Shown here: positions 10,564 through 28,974 of the stretch, in pieces | Layout: each line of letters starts with the position of its first letter | Numbering within the stretch: the stretch's first letter is position 1 | NCBI GenBank assembly: GCA_011524735.1 | Contig: WTJS01000240.1 | Span: 1-42,823, forward strand | Origin: Alphaproteobacteria bacterium | GTDB lineage: Bacteria > Pseudomonadota > Alphaproteobacteria > Puniceispirillales > Puniceispirillaceae | Reading direction: 5' to 3' | DNA: 42,823 bases | Notes under the pieces: generated by a model | The model's database searches: none | What the model saw: only the letters and a program-made list of their open reading frames with translations | What the model was told of the DNA's origin: nothing | Program-made: the position numbers and the translations under genes

Positions 10564-10591
10564 GCGATAAAATCGGCTTTCAGGAATGATC

Positions 10592-10768
10592 ATGCAAACT
10601 GAACTAGCCGGTGAAGAAAATTGCGCGGAAGATCTGGAAACAGATACACCGCTGACTGATACGCTTGTTGATCAGTTCGCCAGTTATTATCTGCTGGCAG
10701 TTCTGGCGGTAAAGGCTCTGGAAGCTATGCGTGAGCAGCGTCGGCTTTCAGAGGCGGCCATGGGATAA
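10592..10768 (+). CDS. Small acidic hypothetical protein (58 aa)
   Basis: ORF MQTELAGEENCAEDLETDTPLTDTLVDQFASYYLLAVLAVKALEAMREQRRLSEAAMG, same strand, in the gap between flanking genes, with caggaatgatc before the ATG. No family recognised. Confidence 0.45.
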   Translation: MQTELAGEENCAEDLETDTPLTDTLVDQFASYYLLAVLAVKALEAMREQRRLSEAAMG

Positions 10769-10863
10769 CTTGCAGGTCTTGACTTGGTGAACTGATACCG
10801 AATTCTGCATCGTCAGAGGGATGACATCTGGACAATTGATGTCTTGCACCCCATTTGCCGGAA

Positions 10864-11691
10864 ATGACTGAATTAACGCCACCATCACTTCCACAGCCGA
10901 CAAGCTTCGCCTCCCGTCAGGCGATGATGGATCACATTGCCAAGCTTTCAGGTCAGCAGCCATGCACTCCATCCCCGATAGAAGGCGGACGTGTCGCGGC
11001 AGAAAAAGCACTCACTGCGATCAATCCGGCAGCCTATGCCGCAACGCGCAATTTTCTGGATGGCGCAGTGACCCGGCTGTCACCTTATATCCGTCAGGGA
11101 ATTCTCAGCCTTGATGAAGTGCGCAACCATGCGCTTTCCATCGAGCCTGACCAGAAAAAAGTCGAAAAGTTTGTTCAAGAACTTGCTTGGCGGGATTATT
11201 GGCAACGGGTCTATGTCGCTCATCCTGAGCGCATCTGGAATGATGTAGAAACCTATAAGACAGGTTTCGATGCCAGTGAGTATGAAACGGATCTGCCTGA
11301 CGATATTTCCACCGGGCAGACTGGCGTTGCCTGCATCGATCATTTCATCGGGACAATGCTTGAAACCGGATACCTGCACAATCATGCCCGCATGTATGTG
11401 GCATCCTATGTCGTGCATTGGCGGCGTATTCGCTGGCAGGCAGGTGCCCGCTGGTTCCTGCAGAATCTGCTGGATGGTGACCCGGCCAGCAATAATCTGT
11501 CATGGCAATGGGTTGCCAGCACCTTTTCCAACAAGCCCTACATCTTCAATCTTGAAAATGTCGCGAAATATACTGGGCATGAGGTGAATACGCGTTTCGC
11601 TGACAACCGCGTGCTTGGTTATTCTTATGAACAGCTGAACGAACTGCTGTTCCCAAATCTTGCGCATATGGCGGGAGATCAACATGGCTGA
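10864..11691 (+). CDS. Photolyase/cryptochrome FAD-binding domain as a stand-alone protein
   Basis: Photolyase C-terminal signatures: LSPYIRQGILSLDEV, FVQELAWRDYWQRVY, YLHNHARMYVASYVVHWRRIRWQAGARWFLQNLLDGDPASNNLSWQWVAST, NLENVAKYTGHEVNTRF; no alpha/beta domain in the ORF. ORF track gives a TTG start at 10855. Confidence 0.85.
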   Translation: MTELTPPSLPQPTSFASRQAMMDHIAKLSGQQPCTPSPIEGGRVAAEKALTAINPAAYAATRNFLDGAVTRLSPYIRQGILSLDEVRNHALSIEPDQKKVEKFVQELAWRDYWQRVYVAHPERIWNDVETYKTGFDASEYETDLPDDISTGQTGVACIDHFIGTMLETGYLHNHARMYVASYVVHWRRIRWQAGARWFLQNLLDGDPASNNLSWQWVASTFSNKPYIFNLENVAKYTGHEVNTRFADNRVLGYSYEQLNELLFPNLAHMAGDQHG

Positions 11692-12133
11692 CCTGGTCTG
11701 GCTGCATGAGGATGCGTTGCGCCGAACGCATCCAGTATTTGTCGCGGCTGATTATGAACGTGGTAGCGATACACAGCCGGTTTTCATATGGGATGTGGAT
11801 TACTTTGGCGAAAACGATATTGGTCTGAAGCGCCAGCATTTCATCTACGAAACACTCGTGGAGATGGGGGCTGAAATTCATGCTGGCAGTATGCATGACA
11901 TCTTGCCGCGTCTTGTTGCTGCTCGAGGCGTGACGCGGGTTCTGGTTCCTGCCACGCCCAATCCGAATATGCTGCGCCGTTATGGGCAGATTCGCCGGGC
12001 TCTGTCCGATATTGCTTTTGACATGGTTGATGACACGCCCTTCGCGACCCTTTCCAAGCCAGCTGATCTTGGCCGATTCTTTCGGTACTGGAATAAGGCC
12101 CGTAAGAGCGCCATGCGCCCGCATGGTGGATAG
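11684..12133 (+). CDS. Photolyase N-terminal alpha/beta (antenna-binding) domain as a stand-alone protein
   Basis: DLVWLHEDALRRTHPVF start, QPVFIWDVDYF, KRQHFIYETLVEMGAEIHAGSMHDILPRLVAARGVTRVLVPA, ending in a linker-like FFRYWNKARKSAM. ATG overlaps the preceding stop (ATGGCTGA). Confidence 0.75.
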   Translation: MADLVWLHEDALRRTHPVFVAADYERGSDTQPVFIWDVDYFGENDIGLKRQHFIYETLVEMGAEIHAGSMHDILPRLVAARGVTRVLVPATPNPNMLRRYGQIRRALSDIAFDMVDDTPFATLSKPADLGRFFRYWNKARKSAMRPHGG

Positions 12134-12229: not shown

Positions 12230-13762
12230 ATGACGGATATTCTTGCCGAACTTGAGGCAAAACGCGTCAAAGCAAGGCTTGGCGGCGGCCAGCGACGGAT
12301 CGATACCCAACATGCGAAAGGCAAGCTGACAGCACGTGAAAGACTGTTGCTGTTGCTTGACGAAGGGTCCTTTGAAGAATGGGACATGTTTGTCGAGCAT
12401 CGGTGTCACGATTTCGGCATGGACAATGCCAAGGTGCCGGGCGATGGAGTCGTAACAGGATATGGCGCTATTTCTGGTCGCCCAGTTTTCGTTTACTCAC
12501 AAGATTTCACCGTTTTGGGAGGCTCTCTTTCTGAAACGCATGCTGCCAAGATCTGTAAGATCATGGATCAAGCTATCAAGACCGGCATCCCGCTTATTGG
12601 TCTGAATGACTCCGGTGGTGCACGGATTCAAGAAGGTGTGGCGTCACTTGGCGGTTATGCCGAAGTGTTCCAGCGCAATGTTCTGGCATCTGGCGTTATT
12701 CCTCAGATTTCTCTGATCATGGGACCCTGTGCTGGTGGTGCCGTTTACTCGCCAGCGATCACTGACTTCATCTTCATGGTTGAAGGGTCGAGCTATATGT
12801 TCGTAACCGGCCCGGATGTGGTGAAAACGGTGACCCATGAAGACCTGACAGCTGAAGAGCTTGGTGGTGCCAAGATGCATAGCCGTCAGTCTGGTGTGGC
12901 GCATGGTGCCTTTGCGAATGACATTGACATGCTGATGCAGACGCGTGAGCTGATGTCATATCTGCCGCTATCCAACCGGGAAGACGCACCGATTGTGCCA
13001 TGTCATGATCCAATCGATCGGCCGTCAGCAGTTCTTGACCAGATCATCCCTGATAATGCGAATATGCCTTATGACATGCGCAAGGTGGTGACGCAGATCG
13101 TCGATAATGGTGAATTTTTTGAAATTCACGAAAACTATGCCGCCAATATCCTCTGCGGTTTTGGCCGTATTGACGGGCGTACGGTTGGGATTGTTGGCAA
13201 CCAGCCCATGGTTCTGGCGGGCTGTCTTGACATTAATGCATCACGCAAGGCGGCGCGCTTCGTGCGGTTCTGCGATGCCTTCAATATCCCGCTTGTCACA
13301 CTTGTTGATGTCCCTGGTTTCATGCCGGGTCTGGCGCAGGAAACAGGTGGCATTATTTCAAATGGCGCAAAACTTCTGTTTGCCTATGCCGAGGCAACTG
13401 TGCCGAAGGTTACGCTGATTACCCGCAAGGCTTATGGCGGAGCCTATGATGTTATGGCCTCGAAACACCTCCGTGGTGATGTAAATTATGCTTGGCCTAG
13501 CGCGGAAATTGCGGTGATGGGCCCGGAGGGCGCTGCGCGGATTATTTTCCGTGAGGATGCAGCTGATCCAGACAAGCTCGCAGCCAAGACTGACGAATAT
13601 CGTGAAAAATTTGCGAACCCCTTTGTCGCCGCTGGTCGAGGATATCTTGATGACATCATTATGCCACGAAACTCACGCCGCCGGATTGCGCGGGCGCTGG
13701 CAATGCTGTCTGACAAGCAGCTGGAAAACCCACCGCGTAAGCATGACAACCTGCCACTTTAG
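12230..13762 (+). CDS. pccB: Acyl-CoA carboxylase carboxyltransferase subunit (propionyl-CoA carboxylase beta)
   Basis: [116 protein letters not shown]. Confidence 0.93.
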
Positions 13763-13806
13763 ATTTTCCGGTCAGGCGTCTGCCTCGACCATGCGGAGTA
13801 AAATTC

Positions 13807-15783
13807 ATGTTCAGTAAAATTCTGATCGCCAACCGAGGGGAAATCGCCTGCCGGATCATGCGCACGGCAAAGCGGATGGGCATCAGCACAGTTGCCGTCT
13901 ATTCCGATGCAGATGCTGGAACCCCGCATGTGACGATGGCTGATGAGGCGGTGAATATCGGGCCAGCGCCCTCAGCGCAGAGCTATCTGCGTGGTGACGC
14001 GATTATCGAAGCCGCAAAATCAACTGGTGCTGAAGCCATTCATCCTGGTTTCGGCTTTCTGTCTGAGAACGCTGAATTCGTAGCTGCCGTAGAGGCTGCT
14101 GGCCTTGCCTTTATTGGGCCAGGCACCGAAGCCATCCGCGTGATGGGCGATAAAATTGAATCCAAGGCGCTCGCAAAAAAGGCAGGAGTTTCAACCGTTC
14201 CGGGGACAGAAGGCGAAGTTGCAGACGTTGATGTGGCGTTGAAGGCCGCTGCTGATATTGGCTATCCAGTGATGGTGAAGGCATCCGCTGGTGGCGGTGG
14301 TAAGGGCATGCGTGTTATTGAAAGCGCAGACGATCTTGCTGATGGGATGCGCGCAGCCATGAGCGAGGCGCAGACAGCCTTTGGTGACTCGCGGGTCTTC
14401 ATTGAAAAATTCGTAGTCCAGCCGCGCCATATTGAAATTCAGCTGATCGCTGATCAGCATGGCAATATCGTCTATGTTGGTGAACGTGAATGTTCAATCC
14501 AGCGACGCCATCAAAAGGTGATTGAAGAGGCGCCAAGCCCGTTCATTTCAGCTGAGACACGGGCCGCTATGGGTCAGCAGGCTGTAGAGCTGGCGCGTGC
14601 GGTGAATTACCGGTCCGCCGGTACGGTTGAATTCATCGTTGGTGCCGATCAGGATTTTTACTTCCTTGAAATGAACACACGCCTTCAGGTGGAACATCCT
14701 GTCACTGAAATGGTGTATGGTCTGGATCTGGTTGAAAAAATGATCCGTGTGGCTGCTGGTGAAGAGCTTGGTCTGACGCAGGATGACATTGTAGCCAAGG
14801 GATGGGCGATCGAAGCGCGAGTCTATGCCGAAGATCCGTCACGTGGTTTTCTGCCTTCCATCGGACAACTTGTACGCTACCGTGAACCAGCCGGCGAAGG
14901 TGTTCGCGTCGACTCCGGTGTTGAAGAGGGCGGCGAGATTTCCATGTATTACGATCCGATGATTGCAAAGCTTGTGGCTTATGCACCGGATCGAGACGCC
15001 GCTATCGACAGACTCCATCTTGCCCTGGATCACTATGAAATTGATGGCATAGCCTGTAACCGCCAGTTCCTTTCGGCGGTCCTGGAGAATGAAGCCTTCC
15101 GATCAGGCAAGCTTACTACGGGCTTTATCGCCGAGGAATTTGACGGAGACTTTGTGGCAGAGGCGCCAGCTGCCGATGATGCTGTTGGGTTGATCGCTTT
15201 GGGAACCGCCGTTGTGGCTCTGCAGATGGAAGAGCGGCATAGCGGTGATCCGGACACCGCGTTTGTGGCGGTCGATCAGACGGGTAATCGGCTGTTGGTC
15301 TCTGTCAAAGGGATTGCCAACCAGTCGGCACAGCTTGAGGTTGATGGAAAGTCCGTAAATCTTGCTGGTGAGTTGCGCAGTCCAATCTATCTGTTTGATG
15401 GAACGATCAATGAGGTTCCGGCAGCCATTCAAATTCGACGGAACGGTTATCGTGTCAGCCTGACACGCGGAGCGTCACGTCTTGATCTGACCGTGCTTCC
15501 TGCACGTTACGACCTGATGCTTGATCACATGCCTGCCGTGGCTGAAGGTGCGGGTGCAGATGAAATCTGTGCACCAATGCCCGGTCAGATCACAAAGCTG
15601 CTCGTTGAAGTTGGTGACGAAGTTCAGAAGGGTCAGGATGTCGCCATCATTGAAGCCATGAAAATGGAAAACATTCTGCAGTCTGAAGCGCAAGGAACCG
15701 TCAAATCGATCGATGTCAGCATTGGCGACAATCTGAATGTTGATGACCTGATCATGGCACTTGATCTGGCAGACGAAGCCTAG
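13807..15783 (+). CDS. pccA: Acyl/propionyl-CoA carboxylase biotin carboxylase + BCCP subunit
   Basis: FSKILIANRGEIACRIMRTAKRMGI, biotin carboxylase ATP-grasp (VMVKASAGGGGKGMRV, ECSIQRRHQKVIEEAPSP, FLEMNTRLQVEHPVTEM), C-terminal biotinylation motif EAMKMEN. Confidence 0.93.
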   Translation: MFSKILIANRGEIACRIMRTAKRMGISTVAVYSDADAGTPHVTMADEAVNIGPAPSAQSYLRGDAIIEAAKSTGAEAIHPGFGFLSENAEFVAAVEAAGLAFIGPGTEAIRVMGDKIESKALAKKAGVSTVPGTEGEVADVDVALKAAADIGYPVMVKASAGGGGKGMRVIESADDLADGMRAAMSEAQTAFGDSRVFIEKFVVQPRHIEIQLIADQHGNIVYVGERECSIQRRHQKVIEEAPSPFISAETRAAMGQQAVELARAVNYRSAGTVEFIVGADQDFYFLEMNTRLQVEHPVTEMVYGLDLVEKMIRVAAGEELGLTQDDIVAKGWAIEARVYAEDPSRGFLPSIGQLVRYREPAGEGVRVDSGVEEGGEISMYYDPMIAKLVAYAPDRDAAIDRLHLALDHYEIDGIACNRQFLSAVLENEAFRSGKLTTGFIAEEFDGDFVAEAPAADDAVGLIALGTAVVALQMEERHSGDPDTAFVAVDQTGNRLLVSVKGIANQSAQLEVDGKSVNLAGELRSPIYLFDGTINEVPAAIQIRRNGYRVSLTRGASRLDLTVLPARYDLMLDHMPAVAEGAGADEICAPMPGQITKLLVEVGDEVQKGQDVAIIEAMKMENILQSEAQGTVKSIDVSIGDNLNVDDLIMALDLADEA

Positions 15784-21529: not shown

Positions 21530-22315
21530 ATGAAACTCTTCAAGGGTAAGGCCATGAAAGCGGCGCTGATGACAGCGGCGTTGGCTGTAACTCCTACTGT
21601 TGCGTTTGCTGATGCCAATCTGGCTTCCGACGATTACGTCGGAATTTCATTCTGGCTGATCTCGATGGCGCTGGTCGCTTCGACTGCGTTTTTCTTCATT
21701 GAGACACAGCGTGTTGAAGGTAAGTGGAAGACTTCGCTTACCGTGTCCGGTCTGGTAACTCTGGTTGCAGCGGTACACTACTTCTACATGCGCGACGTGT
21801 GGGTAGCGACTGGCGATACACCAACTGTGTATCGTTACATTGACTGGCTCATCACAGTTCCACTGCTGATGATCGAGTTCTATCTGATCCTGCGCGCCAT
21901 TGCGAACGTGTCCTCGGGCATTTTCTGGCGTCTGACCATCGGTACACTGATCATGCTGATCGGTGGTTACGCTGGTGAAGTTGGTTACATGAATGTGTGG
22001 CTCGGCTTCGTCATCGGTATGGCCGGTTGGTTCTACATTCTGTATGAGATCTTCGCTGGTGAAGCCGGCAAGCTTTCTGCAGAGCAGGCACCAGATTCGG
22101 TTAAGTCGGCATTCGCGACCATGCGCTGGATTGTGACCATCGGCTGGGCGATTTATCCGCTTGGTTACTTCTATGGTTACCTGGCAACTGGCGACCCAGC
22201 ATCGGCTGCTGCATCGCTCAACGTGATCTACAACCTGGCTGACGTACTGAACAAAATTGCGTTCGGTGTGATCATCTGGAACGTGGCTGTCACCGAGACC
22301 GAAGCAAAGGCCTAA
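21530..22315 (+). CDS. Proteorhodopsin, green-absorbing-type proton pump
   Basis: RYIDWLITVPLLMIEFYLIL carries D-T-E pump residues with L at the spectral tuning position (codon 21866-21868); VHYFYMR histidine; Schiff-base lysine in NLADVLNKIAFGVIIW; N-terminal signal peptide; SD ggaggt. Confidence 0.97.
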   Translation: MKLFKGKAMKAALMTAALAVTPTVAFADANLASDDYVGISFWLISMALVASTAFFFIETQRVEGKWKTSLTVSGLVTLVAAVHYFYMRDVWVATGDTPTVYRYIDWLITVPLLMIEFYLILRAIANVSSGIFWRLTIGTLIMLIGGYAGEVGYMNVWLGFVIGMAGWFYILYEIFAGEAGKLSAEQAPDSVKSAFATMRWIVTIGWAIYPLGYFYGYLATGDPASAAASLNVIYNLADVLNKIAFGVIIWNVAVTETEAKA

Positions 22316-22331
22316 TTGGCTGCTTGACTTC

Positions 22332-22360
22332 GAAGGGGCAGCGCCTGTCGTTGCCCCTTC
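22332..22360 (+). terminator. Hairpin between proteorhodopsin and crtE (terminator/attenuator)
   Basis: GAAGGGGCA-(11 nt)-TGCCCCTTC perfect 9-bp stem 17 nt after the proteorhodopsin stop; T-run only about 18 nt later. Confidence 0.55.
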
Positions 22361-22415
22361 ACCCAGATTGCTTAGTCCTTTTTAAATTCATGGAAGACCA
22401 GGGAAAGCAGTAATC

Positions 22416-23438
22416 ATGACTGACCTATCGACCCAGGCCAAAGAGCTTCTTTTTGAGGCTGGCGGCAACGGCGTCTCCCCGTCTCCCTCAGAAATTCTTC
22501 ACGCTTTCATCACTGATAGACTGCCAGCGGCTGGTGAGCCGCTTGCAGAAGCCGCAGCCCATCATTTTGCGGCGCCCGGCAAGATGCTGCGGGCCAAGAT
22601 GGCGCTGCGGGCAGCCGACTTGCTGAATGTTGATCAACGTGCAGCGCTGCATTGGGCAGCTGCCATAGAAGTTCTGCACAACGCGTCCCTGATCCACGAC
22701 GACATTTGCGACGGTGACAAGCTCCGCCGTGGACGTCCAGCAGTTTGGTCTGTTTATGGGCGTGACGTCGCCTTAACGCTTGGCGACTGGATGATCGCGT
22801 TGGCGTTTGAGCTGGCAGCGGAAGCGGCGCAGCGGTCTCAGACGACTCTGCTGATGAAGATTCTTGCAACACACATGAAGACGACGACGCTTGGCGAGGC
22901 GCGAGAGTTCGATATTCGTCCAGTGACAGACTGGCATCAGTATTTGAAGGGTGCTGGAGACAAGACAGCCCCGCTGTTGACAGCGCCGCTGGAAGGTGTG
23001 GCTGCCATGGCCCTCCATGGTAGTGCCGCAGCAACGATTGGTGATTGCTTTCGGGCGCTTGGCAATGCGTACCAGATTGCCAACGACATCCTTAATTTTT
23101 CAGGGGATGATGGTGCAAACACCTGCGGATCTGATCTGGGGCGCCGCGCACCGAATGGTGTTGTGGTGCTGTTCCGCCAAGGGCTGACGGGAGATGAGTT
23201 GTTCAGATTTGACAGCTGGTACGCCTCCGGCGAAGTTGGCGGCCTTGAGGCATGGGTTAAGTCCCTTCGCAACTCACCAGCGCCGGCTCTTGCAGCAGAC
23301 CGTATGAATGCGCTTCTTGATGATGCCACCTGTTCGGCGGCAAAACTTCCCGCAGAATTGAACGCCGTGATCACACCTATACAGCAGCTTCTTCAGCAGG
23401 TATGCCTGAAGTCAGTCGCGTCGCTGAAAAAGGTGTGA
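22416..23438 (+). CDS. crtE: Polyprenyl (geranylgeranyl) diphosphate synthase
   Basis: First Asp-rich motif HDDICDGDKLRRGRPAVW; position 5' of crtI/crtB; degenerate second motif YQIANDILNFSGDD. Confidence 0.85.
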   Translation: MTDLSTQAKELLFEAGGNGVSPSPSEILHAFITDRLPAAGEPLAEAAAHHFAAPGKMLRAKMALRAADLLNVDQRAALHWAAAIEVLHNASLIHDDICDGDKLRRGRPAVWSVYGRDVALTLGDWMIALAFELAAEAAQRSQTTLLMKILATHMKTTTLGEAREFDIRPVTDWHQYLKGAGDKTAPLLTAPLEGVAAMALHGSAAATIGDCFRALGNAYQIANDILNFSGDDGANTCGSDLGRRAPNGVVVLFRQGLTGDELFRFDSWYASGEVGGLEAWVKSLRNSPAPALAADRMNALLDDATCSAAKLPAELNAVITPIQQLLQQVCLKSVASLKKV

Positions 23439-23449
23439 ATGCCATCACT

Positions 23450-25012
23450 ATGACCACTGAAAGTGAAAGCAGTCTTGCCGGCACAGAACAGGTGTCAGCA
23501 AACAATCACACGTCGTCTGATGTTCTTGTAATTGGGGCTGGATTTGGCGGTATCGCTGCTGCTCTTCGGATGCGCGCGCGTGGATATTCTGTCACGCTTG
23601 TTGATCGCCTGAACGCCATTGGGGGTCGAGCTCAGGTCTTTGAACGAGGTGGATTCCGTCACGATGCTGGGCCAACAGTCATTACCGCACCATTTCTATT
23701 TGATGAACTTTTTGAATTGTTTGGCGAGCGGCGTGAGGATCATCTGGAATTTCGTCCGTTGGACCCGTGGTACCGGTTCTATTTTGACGGGGGCGAGCAA
23801 TTTGACTACCGCGCCACTGTTGAAGACACCAATCGGGAAATTGAACGGTTTTCGCCTCGCGATGTGAAAGGCTATGCAGGCCTTCTGGAAACATCCCGTC
23901 AGATTTTTGAGGTTGGATTCGAGAAACTGGCGGATCGTCCCTTCACGAAATTTTTCTCAATGATGGCGCAGGTTCCGGCACTATTGCGGCTTCGTAGCTA
24001 CCGGACAGTTGCCGGGCTTGTAAACAGCCATATCAAGCACCCGCTACTTCGCCAGGCCTTTTCCATTCATCCCCTGCTGGTTGGCGGAAACCCGTTCACC
24101 ACCACGTCAATCTACGCCCTGATTCATTATCTCGAGCGCCGCTGGGGTGTGTTTTTCTGCATGGGGGGGACTGGCAAGCTCGTTGAGGAGCTTCACAGGC
24201 TGCTAGAACGTGCAGGTGTTAAGGTTGAGCTTGGCGTGGATATCGATCAGATCACCATGAAGGGCAACCGCGCGACGGGTGCAATTGCCATGGATGGCCG
24301 TAGCTTTGCTGCTGATCGTGTGATTTGCAATGGTGATCCGCCGACCATTTACCGCCAGATGATGCCAGGGGAAGCCCGTCGCAAGCGGGCCCTACCAGAT
24401 TCCTTGACCCAATATTCGATGGGCCTTTATGTGCTGTTTTTTGGCACAAAGAAAAAATTCGATGATGTAGCGCATCACACAATCTGGATGGGTCCGAGAT
24501 ATAAAGAGCTTCTGGCAGACATTTTTGATCGCAAGATACTCGCCGATGACTTCTCGCTTTATCTTCATCGACCGACCGCAACGGATGAGAGTTTTGCGCC
24601 AGACGGCTGTGACAGCTTCTACGTTCTCTGCCCGGTCCCCAACCTTCTGGGCGATGTAGATTGGGTCACTGAGGGACCGGCGCTTCGCGACCGCATTGTT
24701 GCCGCTCTTGAGAAGACCATTATGCCTGGCATTACAGACAGCATCAGTGATGATTTCTGGATGACTCCAGAGGATTTCAAGACTGATTATCGTTCGATGC
24801 ATGGGGCTGGCTTCTCGATTGCTCCGATCTTCATCCAATCGGCCTGGTTCCGCTATCACAACCGTGACCCGCATATTCCAAACCTGTATTTTGCGGCAGC
24901 TGGTGCACACCCCGGCGCGGGGATGCCAGGCGTGTTGTGTTCTGCTAAGGTTGTAGAGACGCTGATTGACGAGGAAGAGCAGGCTGCCCCGCGCATGGCA
25001 CAGCCTGCCTGA
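23450..25012 (+). CDS. crtI: Phytoene desaturase
   Basis: VLVIGAGFGGIAAALRMRARGYSVTLVDRLNAIGGRAQVFERGGFRHDAGPTVITAP; C-terminal NLYFAAAGAHPGAGMPGVLCSAKV. ORF track start 23402 overlaps crtE; M at 23450 is an alternative. Confidence 0.95.
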   Translation: MTTESESSLAGTEQVSANNHTSSDVLVIGAGFGGIAAALRMRARGYSVTLVDRLNAIGGRAQVFERGGFRHDAGPTVITAPFLFDELFELFGERREDHLEFRPLDPWYRFYFDGGEQFDYRATVEDTNREIERFSPRDVKGYAGLLETSRQIFEVGFEKLADRPFTKFFSMMAQVPALLRLRSYRTVAGLVNSHIKHPLLRQAFSIHPLLVGGNPFTTTSIYALIHYLERRWGVFFCMGGTGKLVEELHRLLERAGVKVELGVDIDQITMKGNRATGAIAMDGRSFAADRVICNGDPPTIYRQMMPGEARRKRALPDSLTQYSMGLYVLFFGTKKKFDDVAHHTIWMGPRYKELLADIFDRKILADDFSLYLHRPTATDESFAPDGCDSFYVLCPVPNLLGDVDWVTEGPALRDRIVAALEKTIMPGITDSISDDFWMTPEDFKTDYRSMHGAGFSIAPIFIQSAWFRYHNRDPHIPNLYFAAAGAHPGAGMPGVLCSAKVVETLIDEEEQAAPRMAQPA

Positions 25013-25030
25013 AGGCAGAGGCTGGCACGC

Positions 25031-25945
25031 ATGTCAAACGAGACTCTGACATCTGAAGACTCGCTAGCTGCGAATGGTAAGAGTTTTCACTGGGCACGAC
25101 GATTCCTTGGCGAACGTATGGGGGCAGACGCAGCGCGGCTCTATGCCTTCTGCCGTATACTCGATGACATGGCTGATGGCGATATTGAAAATGGTCCGAG
25201 CCGGTTAGCTGTTATCCGCGCTGATCTCGAAGCGGGACGCACAAGTTCGGATCCTGCCCTCGCATCTTTCCAGCCTTTTATGGCCAGCCAGTCTTTCCCC
25301 GGTGATGTCATGATTGCCTTGATTGATGGGTTGCTGGATGACCAGAAAGATGAAGTGGCATTGGCTAGTGAAGCCGATTTGCTGCGGTATGCCTACCGGG
25401 TGGCCGGCACAGTGGGGCTGCTGATGTGTCATGTGCTGGATTGTGACGACTCCGAGGCGCATGCGCATGCGATTGATCTTGGAATTGCCATGCAATTGAC
25501 CAACATCGCGCGAGATGTGCTGGAAGATGCCAGAATGAACCGCAGATATATTCCGGCTGACTGGGTGTCAGGGGCAACACCTGCAGATATTCGTACGGCG
25601 TCTGGCCGTCCGGATAGTCCCGTTGGCCGTGAGGTTACAATGGCGGTATCCCGGCTGCTGGACCTTGCTGAAACATTCTATTCCAGTGGGGCGCGTGGGT
25701 ACCGATATCTGCCATTTCGGGCTCATCTCGCCATTTCAATCGCGGCGCGAGTCTATCGCCAGATTGGTGTGCAACTCCGGGACGCAGACTGTGCCTGGCA
25801 TGAAGGACGTCAGGTGACCAGCAAGGCGACCAAGGTGCGCTGCTCGGTCATGGCCTTGGCAAGCCTGACGGTCCGCTGGCGGCGGCGGGATCTGCATGAT
25901 CGCAGGCTTCACGCCGATCTTCAGGGGCTACCCTATGTGTGCTGA
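25031..25945 (+). CDS. crtB: Phytoene synthase
   Basis: ARLYAFCRILDDMADG, LGIAMQLTNIARDVLEDARMNRRYIPADW. Confidence 0.95.
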   Translation: MSNETLTSEDSLAANGKSFHWARRFLGERMGADAARLYAFCRILDDMADGDIENGPSRLAVIRADLEAGRTSSDPALASFQPFMASQSFPGDVMIALIDGLLDDQKDEVALASEADLLRYAYRVAGTVGLLMCHVLDCDDSEAHAHAIDLGIAMQLTNIARDVLEDARMNRRYIPADWVSGATPADIRTASGRPDSPVGREVTMAVSRLLDLAETFYSSGARGYRYLPFRAHLAISIAARVYRQIGVQLRDADCAWHEGRQVTSKATKVRCSVMALASLTVRWRRRDLHDRRLHADLQGLPYVC

Positions 25946-27053
25946 TCCCGTATCGCCGGCAGAGCCGTCGAATAAACTGGTCATTCTAGGGGATGGGTGC
26001 GCTGCGCTGTCTTTAGCTCAACATGCAGATCAACTTTCTGAATACCAGATTACGGTTGTCCGGCCCGAGGGGGCCCCGCCAGAGAGAGACCACATTTGGG
26101 GTCTCTGGAAAATACCGGGTGCGGATCATACAGCAGGGCTGGAACGGGCAAGCTGGCATCGCTGGTCAATCGTCACGAACAGTGGTGAGGCGATCCTGCA
26201 ATCCGATGCAAGGCCCTACATGGCCCTGAATCGGCTGTCCTGGACAGGCGCCTGCAGAGACATCGCTGCAAGGGCTGGCGTTGCCATCACAAGCACGATG
26301 CCTGATCGTGAGGCTGGTTACTGGCTGGACACTCGGCCAGCAGCTGTTCCAGAAGGTATGATGTTGCAGCATTTTATTGGTCAGGAAATTGTCTGTGATG
26401 ATCCGGTGTTTGACCCTGGCACAGCGATCTTGATGGATTTCCGAACCGATCAGTCACAAGGGATGCATTTCATATATCTGCTTCCATTTTCAGAGTACGA
26501 AGCTCTCGTTGAATCAACCCTGTTCAGTCCAACAAGATGTGGGGACGACTTCTATCGAACGGCAATTGACACCTATCTGCGCAACATCATTGGCGTTAGT
26601 CACTATCAGGTGTCGCGTGAAGAAAGAGGCACAATCCCGCTTGGCATACTGCCGCGGCGTGACCCGTCAATAACAGGTCTTGGTGGTAATGGCGGGGCTA
26701 TCAGGCCATCCAGTGGATATGCCTTTGTCTTTATCCAGAAACAGGTCAAGGCACTTGTCGCGTCGCTGCGTCAGGGGAGGGTGGAAGTCACCGTCCCCCA
26801 TCGTGCTGTCGATCTGTGGATGGACGCTGTTCTACTGTCCGTACTTCGGCACTGGCCAGAGCAAGCACCCCAGCTTTTTCTGGCGATGGCGCGCGCCCTT
26901 AGCGGCGATGAATTTGCGCGATTCCTGAGTGGAGAAGCGAGCTGGAGATTGCGGGCCAAAGTCGTCATGGCCATGCCAAAACTACCATTCATTCGCGGCC
27001 TGTTGAGGCTTATGGTGCGCAGTCATGCGGCGAAGCCGGCGGAGGTGATGTGA
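25935..27053 (+). CDS. crtY: Lycopene beta-cyclase
   Basis: NKLVILGDGCAALSLAQHA, RDHIWGLWK, FRTDQSQGMHFIYLLPFSEYEALVESTLFS; overlaps crtB end. ORF track start 25896. Confidence 0.9.
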   Translation: MCADPVSPAEPSNKLVILGDGCAALSLAQHADQLSEYQITVVRPEGAPPERDHIWGLWKIPGADHTAGLERASWHRWSIVTNSGEAILQSDARPYMALNRLSWTGACRDIAARAGVAITSTMPDREAGYWLDTRPAAVPEGMMLQHFIGQEIVCDDPVFDPGTAILMDFRTDQSQGMHFIYLLPFSEYEALVESTLFSPTRCGDDFYRTAIDTYLRNIIGVSHYQVSREERGTIPLGILPRRDPSITGLGGNGGAIRPSSGYAFVFIQKQVKALVASLRQGRVEVTVPHRAVDLWMDAVLLSVLRHWPEQAPQLFLAMARALSGDEFARFLSGEASWRLRAKVVMAMPKLPFIRGLLRLMVRSHAAKPAEVM

Positions 27054-27910
27054 TGTTGGACCCACATATGCTGACCATGTTGACCCCGCTTGATCTGGTG
27101 GCGTTGCTGGCAGTGGTTGTGATCGGGCTTCCACACGGGGCTCTGGATGGGGCAGTGGCAATGCATCTTGGGTTCACCCATAAAATCCTGCATTTCATCA
27201 GATTTCTGGGTCTTTATGTGGCTGTTGCCAGTGCTGTAGTTGCGGCATGGCTGTTTGCGCCAGTATTGACGCTGATTGCATTCCTGGTGATCAGTATTTT
27301 TCACTTTGGCAGTGGCGATGCGCGGTCTGAGAGAGGGTGGAGGCGACGCTTTGAGATCATCGCCCATGGTGGTCTGGTTGTTGTTGGCATCAGCCAGATG
27401 CACCACGTAGATGTTGATGTGATCTTTGCCTATCTTGTTGGTCAGGATACGGCTCTTGTCTGGCAGGCGCTTGATGTGATGACGGTGTTTGTGGGTGCGG
27501 CACTGATTGTGTGTCTCTTTCAAGCTCTGTGGCACCGTACGCTGCGCTGGACGGCAATTGAACTTCTGGGGCTGACGGTACTGTTTGCCTATGCCCCACC
27601 ACTTGTCGGGTTTGCGGTCTATTTCTGCTGTGTTCATTCAGCCCGACACGTTGTAAGCATCCTGCGAAGTCTTCGTCAGGATATGCCTGCTGGTGCCATG
27701 TTGATGAATGCGGCGGGTCTTACTGTGGCCAGCTGGGCTGCCGGCGCTGCTGCATTGTGGTGGTTTGCTGATGCGGGAAGTGTGGAGCCTGTGCTCCTAC
27801 GTGTTGTTTTCATCGGACTGGCAGCGCTGACCGTACCACACATGATCCTGATCGATGGGTTTTACAGGCAGGCAAAGCCGTCTCTCAGCAATGCCTATGG
27901 GACGAGGTAA
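27053..27910 (+). CDS. blh: Beta-carotene 15,15'-dioxygenase, Brp/Blh family (retinal formation)
   Basis: GLPHGALDGAVAMHLGF, ISIFHFGSGDAR, VHSARHVVSIL, LTVPHMILIDGFYR; TGATG overlap with crtY. Confidence 0.92.
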   Translation: MLDPHMLTMLTPLDLVALLAVVVIGLPHGALDGAVAMHLGFTHKILHFIRFLGLYVAVASAVVAAWLFAPVLTLIAFLVISIFHFGSGDARSERGWRRRFEIIAHGGLVVVGISQMHHVDVDVIFAYLVGQDTALVWQALDVMTVFVGAALIVCLFQALWHRTLRWTAIELLGLTVLFAYAPPLVGFAVYFCCVHSARHVVSILRSLRQDMPAGAMLMNAAGLTVASWAAGAAALWWFADAGSVEPVLLRVVFIGLAALTVPHMILIDGFYRQAKPSLSNAYGTR

Positions 27911-27915
27911 GCGAT

Positions 27916-28974
27916 ATGGCGAGTTCTTCTTCCAACACCCCGGCCAGCCCAAGTGACACCAGCGAGCGCAAAGATGCCCATCTTGCATTGGCTGCTGACC
28001 CGCTGGCCATGTCACAGGTTCCTTCAGGCTTTGATGCGGTGCGGCTGACGCATTGTGCGCTGCCAGAATGCAGCCTTGAAGAGGTTGATATATCCACTAG
28101 CTGTCTTGGTCACTCTGTAAGCGCGCCCTTTTTTATTGGATCCATGACGGGCGGAACGGCACATGCAACAGCAATCAATCTGGCGCTTGCGGAGGTTGCT
28201 GAGTCTGCTGGTATAGGATTGGCAGTTGGCTCACAGCGCGCCAGCCTTGAGGCTGGTCAGTCGCAGCGCGATCTCAGGCGAGCGGCCCCGTCAATTCCCT
28301 TATTTGGGAATCTTGGCGGTCTTCAGCTTGCCGCGCCTGGTGGTCTGGATCTGGCGGCGCGCGCTGTTGATGACCTGCAAGCTGATGCCCTGTTCATCCA
28401 TGTGAATCCGCTTCAAGAAGCCGTTCAACCTGAAGGTGAGACCGACTGGCGCGGCGTCATAGAAGCGATTGAAGCGGCGGTAACGTTTCTTAACGTTCCT
28501 GTTTTGGTGAAAGAGGTGGGAGCGGGGATTGGCGCAAATGTGGCCCGTCGACTGTTTGACATTGGTGTACATGCGGTCGATATCGCGGGACTTGGTGGTA
28601 CCAACTGGACCCGAATTGAAGCTGCGCGCCGTGATGATGCTGAGCTGTTCGCGCCATTTCTAGATTGGGGCATTCCGACCGTTGATGCGCTTCGGGACGC
28701 TCGTTCCGCCTGTCCTGAAGGACGGCTGATTGCCTCGGGTGGAATTCGCCATGGACTTGATGCCGCCAAGGCATTGTGGCTTGGGGCAACCATGACCTCG
28801 ATGGCAGGTCCTGTTCTCAAGGCGATGACGGGTGATGGCACGTCACCCCCCGATGCGGTAGCGGCGATCAAGGTGATTGAGATGTGGAAAGCTCAGCTTC
28901 GTCTTGCTGTATTCCTGACCGGTGCCTGTGATCTGGCAGCGTTTGCTGGTGTCGAAGGGCGGATCAGCAGGTAG
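27916..28974 (+). CDS. fni: Type 2 isopentenyl-diphosphate delta-isomerase
   Basis: FFIGSMTGGTAHATAINLALAEVAESAGIGLAVGSQRASLE, FIHVNPLQEAVQPEGETDWRG, VLVKEVGAGI, DIAGLGGTNWTRIE. Confidence 0.93.
   Translation: MASSSSNTPASPSDTSERKDAHLALAADPLAMSQVPSGFDAVRLTHCALPECSLEEVDISTSCLGHSVSAPFFIGSMTGGTAHATAINLALAEVAESAGIGLAVGSQRASLEAGQSQRDLRRAAPSIPLFGNLGGLQLAAPGGLDLAARAVDDLQADALFIHVNPLQEAVQPEGETDWRGVIEAIEAAVTFLNVPVLVKEVGAGIGANVARRLFDIGVHAVDIAGLGGTNWTRIEAARRDDAELFAPFLDWGIPTVDALRDARSACPEGRLIASGGIRHGLDAAKALWLGATMTSMAGPVLKAMTGDGTSPPDAVAAIKVIEMWKAQLRLAVFLTGACDLAAFAGVEGRISR

Follow-up and report, generated by a model that had tools for sequence, protein, structure and literature searches.

A FAD-first gene pair in a marine alphaproteobacterial genome, predicted to encode a two-polypeptide CPD photolyase

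Two adjacent genes in a 42,823-nt stretch of alphaproteobacterial DNA (hereafter, the window) probably encode a photolyase for cyclobutane pyrimidine dimers (CPDs) made of two polypeptides, one of them a separate cap/antenna subunit; this predicted function is the best reading of the comparisons described below. ORF1 would be the catalytic subunit, predicted to bind FAD, to be photoreduced via conserved tryptophans, and to split CPDs, perhaps in single-stranded DNA. ORF2 would correspond to the alpha/beta half of an ordinary photolyase, made as a separate chain through coupled translation. This chain probably binds to ORF1, perhaps with its conserved C-terminal helix as the contact, and would thereby close the FAD domain off on that side; it may also carry an antenna pigment.

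Domains, fold, and active site of the two gene products

The two genes lie on the same strand and overlap (Table 1). The Pfam scan assigned FAD_binding_7 (PF03441, E 4e-27) to ORF1 (275 aa, with an alternative TTG start at 10855) and found no alpha/beta domain in it; a weak match to MqsR (E 0.11) fell under the cut-off. DNA_photolyase (PF00875, E 3e-8) was the sole domain match of ORF2 (149 aa) and exceeded the gathering score. The preliminary description of a gene for the FAD part alone, followed by an adjacent, overlapping gene for the alpha/beta part, was borne out by the coordinates and the Pfam results, and the motifs that it quoted for ORF1 and ORF2 were found in the translations. One of these, FFRYWNKARK at the end of ORF2, is the conserved C-terminal helix of the family. 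Upstream of the pair, a 60-aa ORF at 10586-10768 had no Pfam match, and a stretch 56% identical to it is likewise upstream of the pair in locus L100. Downstream, propionyl/acetyl-CoA carboxylase beta and alpha genes occupy 12230-15783.

Table 1. Features of the gene pair and its surroundings in the window
Feature	Position	Strand	Evidence
ORF1, FAD-domain (predicted catalytic) subunit, Phr4/SPL-like, without Fe-S cysteines; ATG start	10864..11691	+	PF03441, active-site residues, cysteines
ORF2, alpha/beta-domain subunit, Phr5-like; ATG start	11684..12133	+	PF00875, AlphaFold pLDDT 92.9, Foldseek
8-nt overlap ATGGCTGA between the ORF1 stop and the ORF2 start	11684..11691	+	Sequence
GGGAG, Shine-Dalgarno-like, 5' of the ORF2 ATG and within the end of ORF1	11671..11675	+	Sequence; putative function
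pccB-like gene, conserved downstream neighbour, outside the enzyme	12230..13762	+	Synteny in 13/13 loci of genera g1 and g4

ORF2 was too diverged in sequence for a firm PDB match, reaching E 0.001 when searched as a profile. Its AlphaFold model was confident (pLDDT 92.9, pTM 0.84), and the best 50 PDB matches of the model (Foldseek, E ≤ 0.001) were all photolyases or cryptochromes, with the Anacystis photolyase 1QNF at the top (TM 0.69). According to the model, ORF2 has the photolyase alpha/beta fold; together with PF00875, these matches uphold the assignment made in the preliminary description, which had allowed that ORF2 might not adopt this fold.

ORF1 matched the FAD, CPD-contact, and electron-transfer positions of class I CPD photolyases at E106, W109, R110, N173, R176, M177, W191, D204, D206, N210, W214, and W216. 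The roles of these sites were assigned from alignments to 1TEZ and 1OWL and from what we take to be the contacts in known structures. In A. nidulans numbering, the CPD contacts are presumably E283, W286, N349, M353, and W392, all of which are present in ORF1. N173 and M177 occupy what we take to be the sites of two histidines in (6-4) enzymes, and this replacement suggests from sequence that CPD repair is likelier than (6-4) repair. Of the electron-transfer triad, two of the three tryptophans (W191 and W214) are kept; at the site equivalent to E. coli W306, ORF1 has Ala, and its group, in which Trp is absent from this site, usually has Ala, Pro, or Ser.

A search of the source genome, which is 86% complete, gave no match to CofG/CofH (FO-synthase, 8-HDF) at E ≤ 0.001, and thus a cell-made 8-HDF antenna is unlikely. 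The same genome holds two more full-length photolyase/cryptochrome genes (G000:C123 and G000:C150, loci L001 and L002) with open frames 503 and 482 aa long, which makes the pair its third member of the family.

Conservation and spread of the pair

The gene pair is real and conserved. A scan of the genome collection found 238 relatives of ORF1, of which 80 loci were retained; these belong to Proteobacteria, Acidobacteria, Chloroflexota, Cyanobacteria, Planctomycetes, and others. One of them, L019, is a metagenome-assembled genome titled Klebsiella pneumoniae that groups with other environmental bacteria, and its title is probably a mislabel. A relative of ORF2 follows ORF1 directly in nearly all of the 80 loci, and no true orphan ORF1 was found among those with enough sequence. 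Within the order to which the window belongs, ORF1 (at least 265 bits) was detected in 28 of 136 genomes, and the identical 28 have ORF2; a genome with either gene alone was not found among the 136. The prospect, raised at the outset, that the pair might be absent from all relatives is therefore dismissed by these genomes and by its presence in several phyla.

The order ORF1-ORF2-pccB is kept in all 13 loci of two related genera (g1 and g4). Both genes are under purifying selection (dN/dS 0.05-0.28), and their distance matrices are correlated (r = 0.79 over 93 pairs, permutation maximum 0.07), to which the shared ancestry of the hosts contributes.

The junction between the two genes is variable. 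Among 93 non-redundant pairs, its length is -4 nt in 29, -8 in 20, and -1 in nine, while 24 pairs are separated by 1-30 nt, seven by 31-500 nt, and four by more than 500 nt. It reaches 410 nt in filamentous cyanobacteria, and the ORF2 homologue is 1.1-1.6 kb downstream of ORF1 in Roseiflexus-like genomes (L049, L064, and L066); L049 and L064 also have another photolyase-like frame immediately upstream of ORF1. Chlorogloeopsis fritschii and a Coleofasciculus genome carry the ORF2 partner at another site, away from the ORF1 locus; the cyanobacterial loci with unlinked ORF2 are L061 and L082, with partners in L154 and L155. Natural fusions, with the FAD domain first, occur in five loci. The model of one of them, L067 (pLDDT 88, pTM 0.90), places both domains together with confidence; a Foldseek search with the fused model, which preserves chain order, apparently matched the FAD half alone. 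This range, from overlap to unlinked genes and fusions, points to two polypeptides that must meet and argues against a required frameshift. As practically no ORF1 is without its alpha/beta partner, unlinked cases included, the so-called short photolyases are probably two-subunit enzymes.

Published relatives and alternation with NewPHL

The preliminary description had presented the arrangement as unprecedented, which it is not. Adjacent genes of Synechococcus WH7803 (SynWH7803_0266/0267), each encoding one photolyase domain, were reported in 2012, and a heterodimeric photolyase was proposed (PMC3441193). In 2022, the Synechococcus pair was named phr4/phr5, its reversed order was noted, and the genes were disrupted and expressed; a fused form, phr6, was found in Cyanobium (PMC9426592). 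Loss of phr4 in Synechococcus RS9916 lowered survival after UV-C, and phr4/phr5 raised the UV-C survival of E. coli, with no significant difference between the gains in light and dark (PMC9426592). In our analysis, a Cyanobium pair (L060) and a Cyanobium fusion (L080) were placed in the same family as the genes of the window by the tree and by an ORF2 profile search. Our literature search found nothing on point on photolyases in SAR116 or Puniceispirillum.

The layout has thus been known since 2012, and the pair in the window is a relative without the Fe-S cysteines. Like Phr4/Phr5, a proposed heterodimer, and the fused Phr6, it joins a FAD gene to an alpha/beta gene, FAD first. All published Phr4 and Phr6 proteins carry four Fe-S cysteines (PMC9426592), whereas ORF1 retains the first of them (C157) and is without the other three in the alignment; it was accordingly classed with the Fe-S-less relatives and not with Phr4 in the narrow sense. 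The published junction of Phr4/Phr5 has seven G-C pairs between the ORFs, and that of the window is an overlap. The four cysteines are present in at least 42 of 84 alignment rows, chiefly from Cyanobacteria, Chloroflexota, and Acidobacteria, while most proteobacterial relatives have the first only, as does ORF1. On the tree, sequences of the Fe-S-less kind make up a single, moderately supported group (61 rows, SH-aLRT 88), apart from three Chloroflexota that fall outside it. Three Acidobacteria (L045, L063, and L068) have all four cysteines in the alignment, and their Fe-S labels on the tree are wrong.

ORF1 shares FAD-site and CPD-contact residues with the class I CPD photolyases of Anacystis nidulans and E. 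coli, which in contrast are single chains with the alpha/beta domain first and have the third tryptophan of the triad. The prokaryotic (6-4) enzymes FeS-BCP/PhrB share the photolyase fold, and comparable cysteines occur in those relatives of ORF1 that are of the Fe-S type; FeS-BCP/PhrB, however, are single chains with the alpha/beta domain first and an Fe-S cluster, whereas three of the four cysteines are absent from ORF1. ORF1 also agrees with the SPL class in having a FAD domain without an alpha/beta domain on the same chain, but in the window the next gene encodes the alpha/beta part. SPL proteins (Xu et al. 2021, through PMC9649867 and PMC9178010) are portrayed as enzymes of short length from which the photolyase family may have descended.

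NewPHL/Phr7 (Emmerich et al. 2020, through PMC9426592 and PMC13274461) resembles ORF1 in having the FAD domain first and no Fe-S cluster, and it is reported to repair CPDs in single-stranded DNA. It differs in being a single chain with a C-terminal domain that has no detectable homology to ORF2. This C-terminal (Z) domain is absent from ORF1, whose chain ends after the FAD domain. A NewPHL-like photolyase was found in 63 of the 136 genomes of the order; the set has the FAD domain first and is mostly 360-450 aa long, and partial matches account for three of the 63. From this architecture, the proteins can be inferred to be NewPHL/Phr7. They form a group separate from ORF1 on the tree (SH-aLRT 99), and PF00875 did not match the C-terminal part of the two that were scanned. 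The idea that this part is a degenerate ORF2, suggested by the FF..K endings by eye, was rejected (hhalign probability 0.7%).

No genome has both the pair and the NewPHL-like protein, where 13 would be expected by chance; the hypergeometric probability is 1e-9 by genome and 0.005 by genus, neither of which accounts for kinship. Within the order, the genomes with the pair fall at three distinct positions on the ORF1 tree (genera g1/g4/g5, genus g8, and family f4), and the exclusion is therefore hardly a single inherited event. The same alternation of a fourth photolyase was described in picocyanobacteria (PMC9426592). The mutual exclusion suggests an overlapping role of the pair and the NewPHL-like protein.

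Alternative readings and implications

That the pair is a pseudogene, a frameshift, or an assembly rearrangement of an ordinary photolyase could be entertained for a draft genome of 288 contigs (86% complete), and the last two were a concern of the preliminary description; given the conserved synteny, the purifying selection, and the recurrence in many phyla, its probability is negligible. Programmed +1 frameshifting at the ORF1 TGA could instead yield a single fused chain, as put forward for phr4/phr5 (PMC9426592): skipping one base at TGAC leads into the ORF2 frame, GGGAG lies upstream, and natural fusions exist. The junctions of relatives nevertheless vary from -8, -4, and -1 nt up to 410 nt, over 1 kb, and no linkage at all in two cyanobacteria, and ORF2 comes with an ATG and a Shine-Dalgarno-like site of its own, so that we judged this mechanism very unlikely. 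A less remote reading, to which we still give little weight, is that ORF1 is active alone as a short photolyase and ORF2 is a dispensable accessory or has another role. It is in line with the description of SPL proteins in PMC9649867 as FAD-domain-only proteins with CPD activity, but fits poorly with the near-constant retention of ORF2 alongside ORF1, even where the two are unlinked, and with their correlated evolution.

The remaining readings concern the substrate and the function. The same two-subunit photolyase might repair (6-4) photoproducts, as proposed for Synechococcus Phr4/Phr5; this activity was predicted for the Fe-S form on two grounds, the Fe-S cysteines and effects that were stronger with UV-C than with UV-B (PMC9426592), and Phr4/Phr5-type sequences belong to the family of the window. 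ORF1, however, is without three of the four cysteines underlying that prediction and keeps the CPD-type N173 and M177, which makes (6-4) repair an unlikely substrate assignment here. The preliminary description also offered a light sensor with a dissociable antenna subunit, next to a rhodopsin-phototrophy region, which would amount to a cryptochrome-like protein linked to rhodopsin phototrophy. A light sensor would share the flavoprotein fold, and a proteorhodopsin gene cluster is indeed in the window. At 21530-28974, a proteorhodopsin-like gene (21530-22315) is followed by carotenoid/retinal genes (crtE-, crtI-, crtB-, crtY-, and blh-like) and an IPP isomerase-like gene, all named from their translations. 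The claimed proximity is limited to this co-occurrence, as the proteorhodopsin-like gene starts about 9.4 kb downstream of the pair, and it is pccB that is the constant neighbour. The repair-site residues are conserved in ORF1, Pfam found no signalling domain in the pair, and the family also occurs in Acidobacteria, Chloroflexota, and others; the sensor idea gained no specific support and is highly improbable. Of the two-subunit flavoprotein first envisaged, the split domains and their co-evolution stand, with a photolyase as the likeliest product, while ORF2 as a dissociable antenna gained no support.

The putative two-polypeptide CPD photolyase adds to the published work an Fe-S-less branch, a near-universal alpha/beta partner, and the mutual exclusion of the pair and NewPHL-like proteins, with SPL and NewPHL compared through the descriptions in the citing papers. 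As a tentative generalization, which we regard as plausible but short of probable, the family may be a widespread bacterial class of obligately two-subunit photolyases with Fe-S and Fe-S-less branches, in which SPL proteins would be halves of heterodimers whose alpha/beta subunit was overlooked, and the marine alphaproteobacterial Fe-S-less form would fill the niche of NewPHL as a single-strand CPD photolyase. The alternation with NewPHL leads to a concrete substrate prediction in marine bacteria, namely CPDs, perhaps in single-stranded DNA. If the enzyme is an obligate heterodimer, removal of one subunit could reveal whether the alpha/beta domain serves as antenna, as cap, or for stability, a question that single-chain enzymes make difficult to address, and the case for short photolyases as the primordial one-domain enzyme would be weakened.
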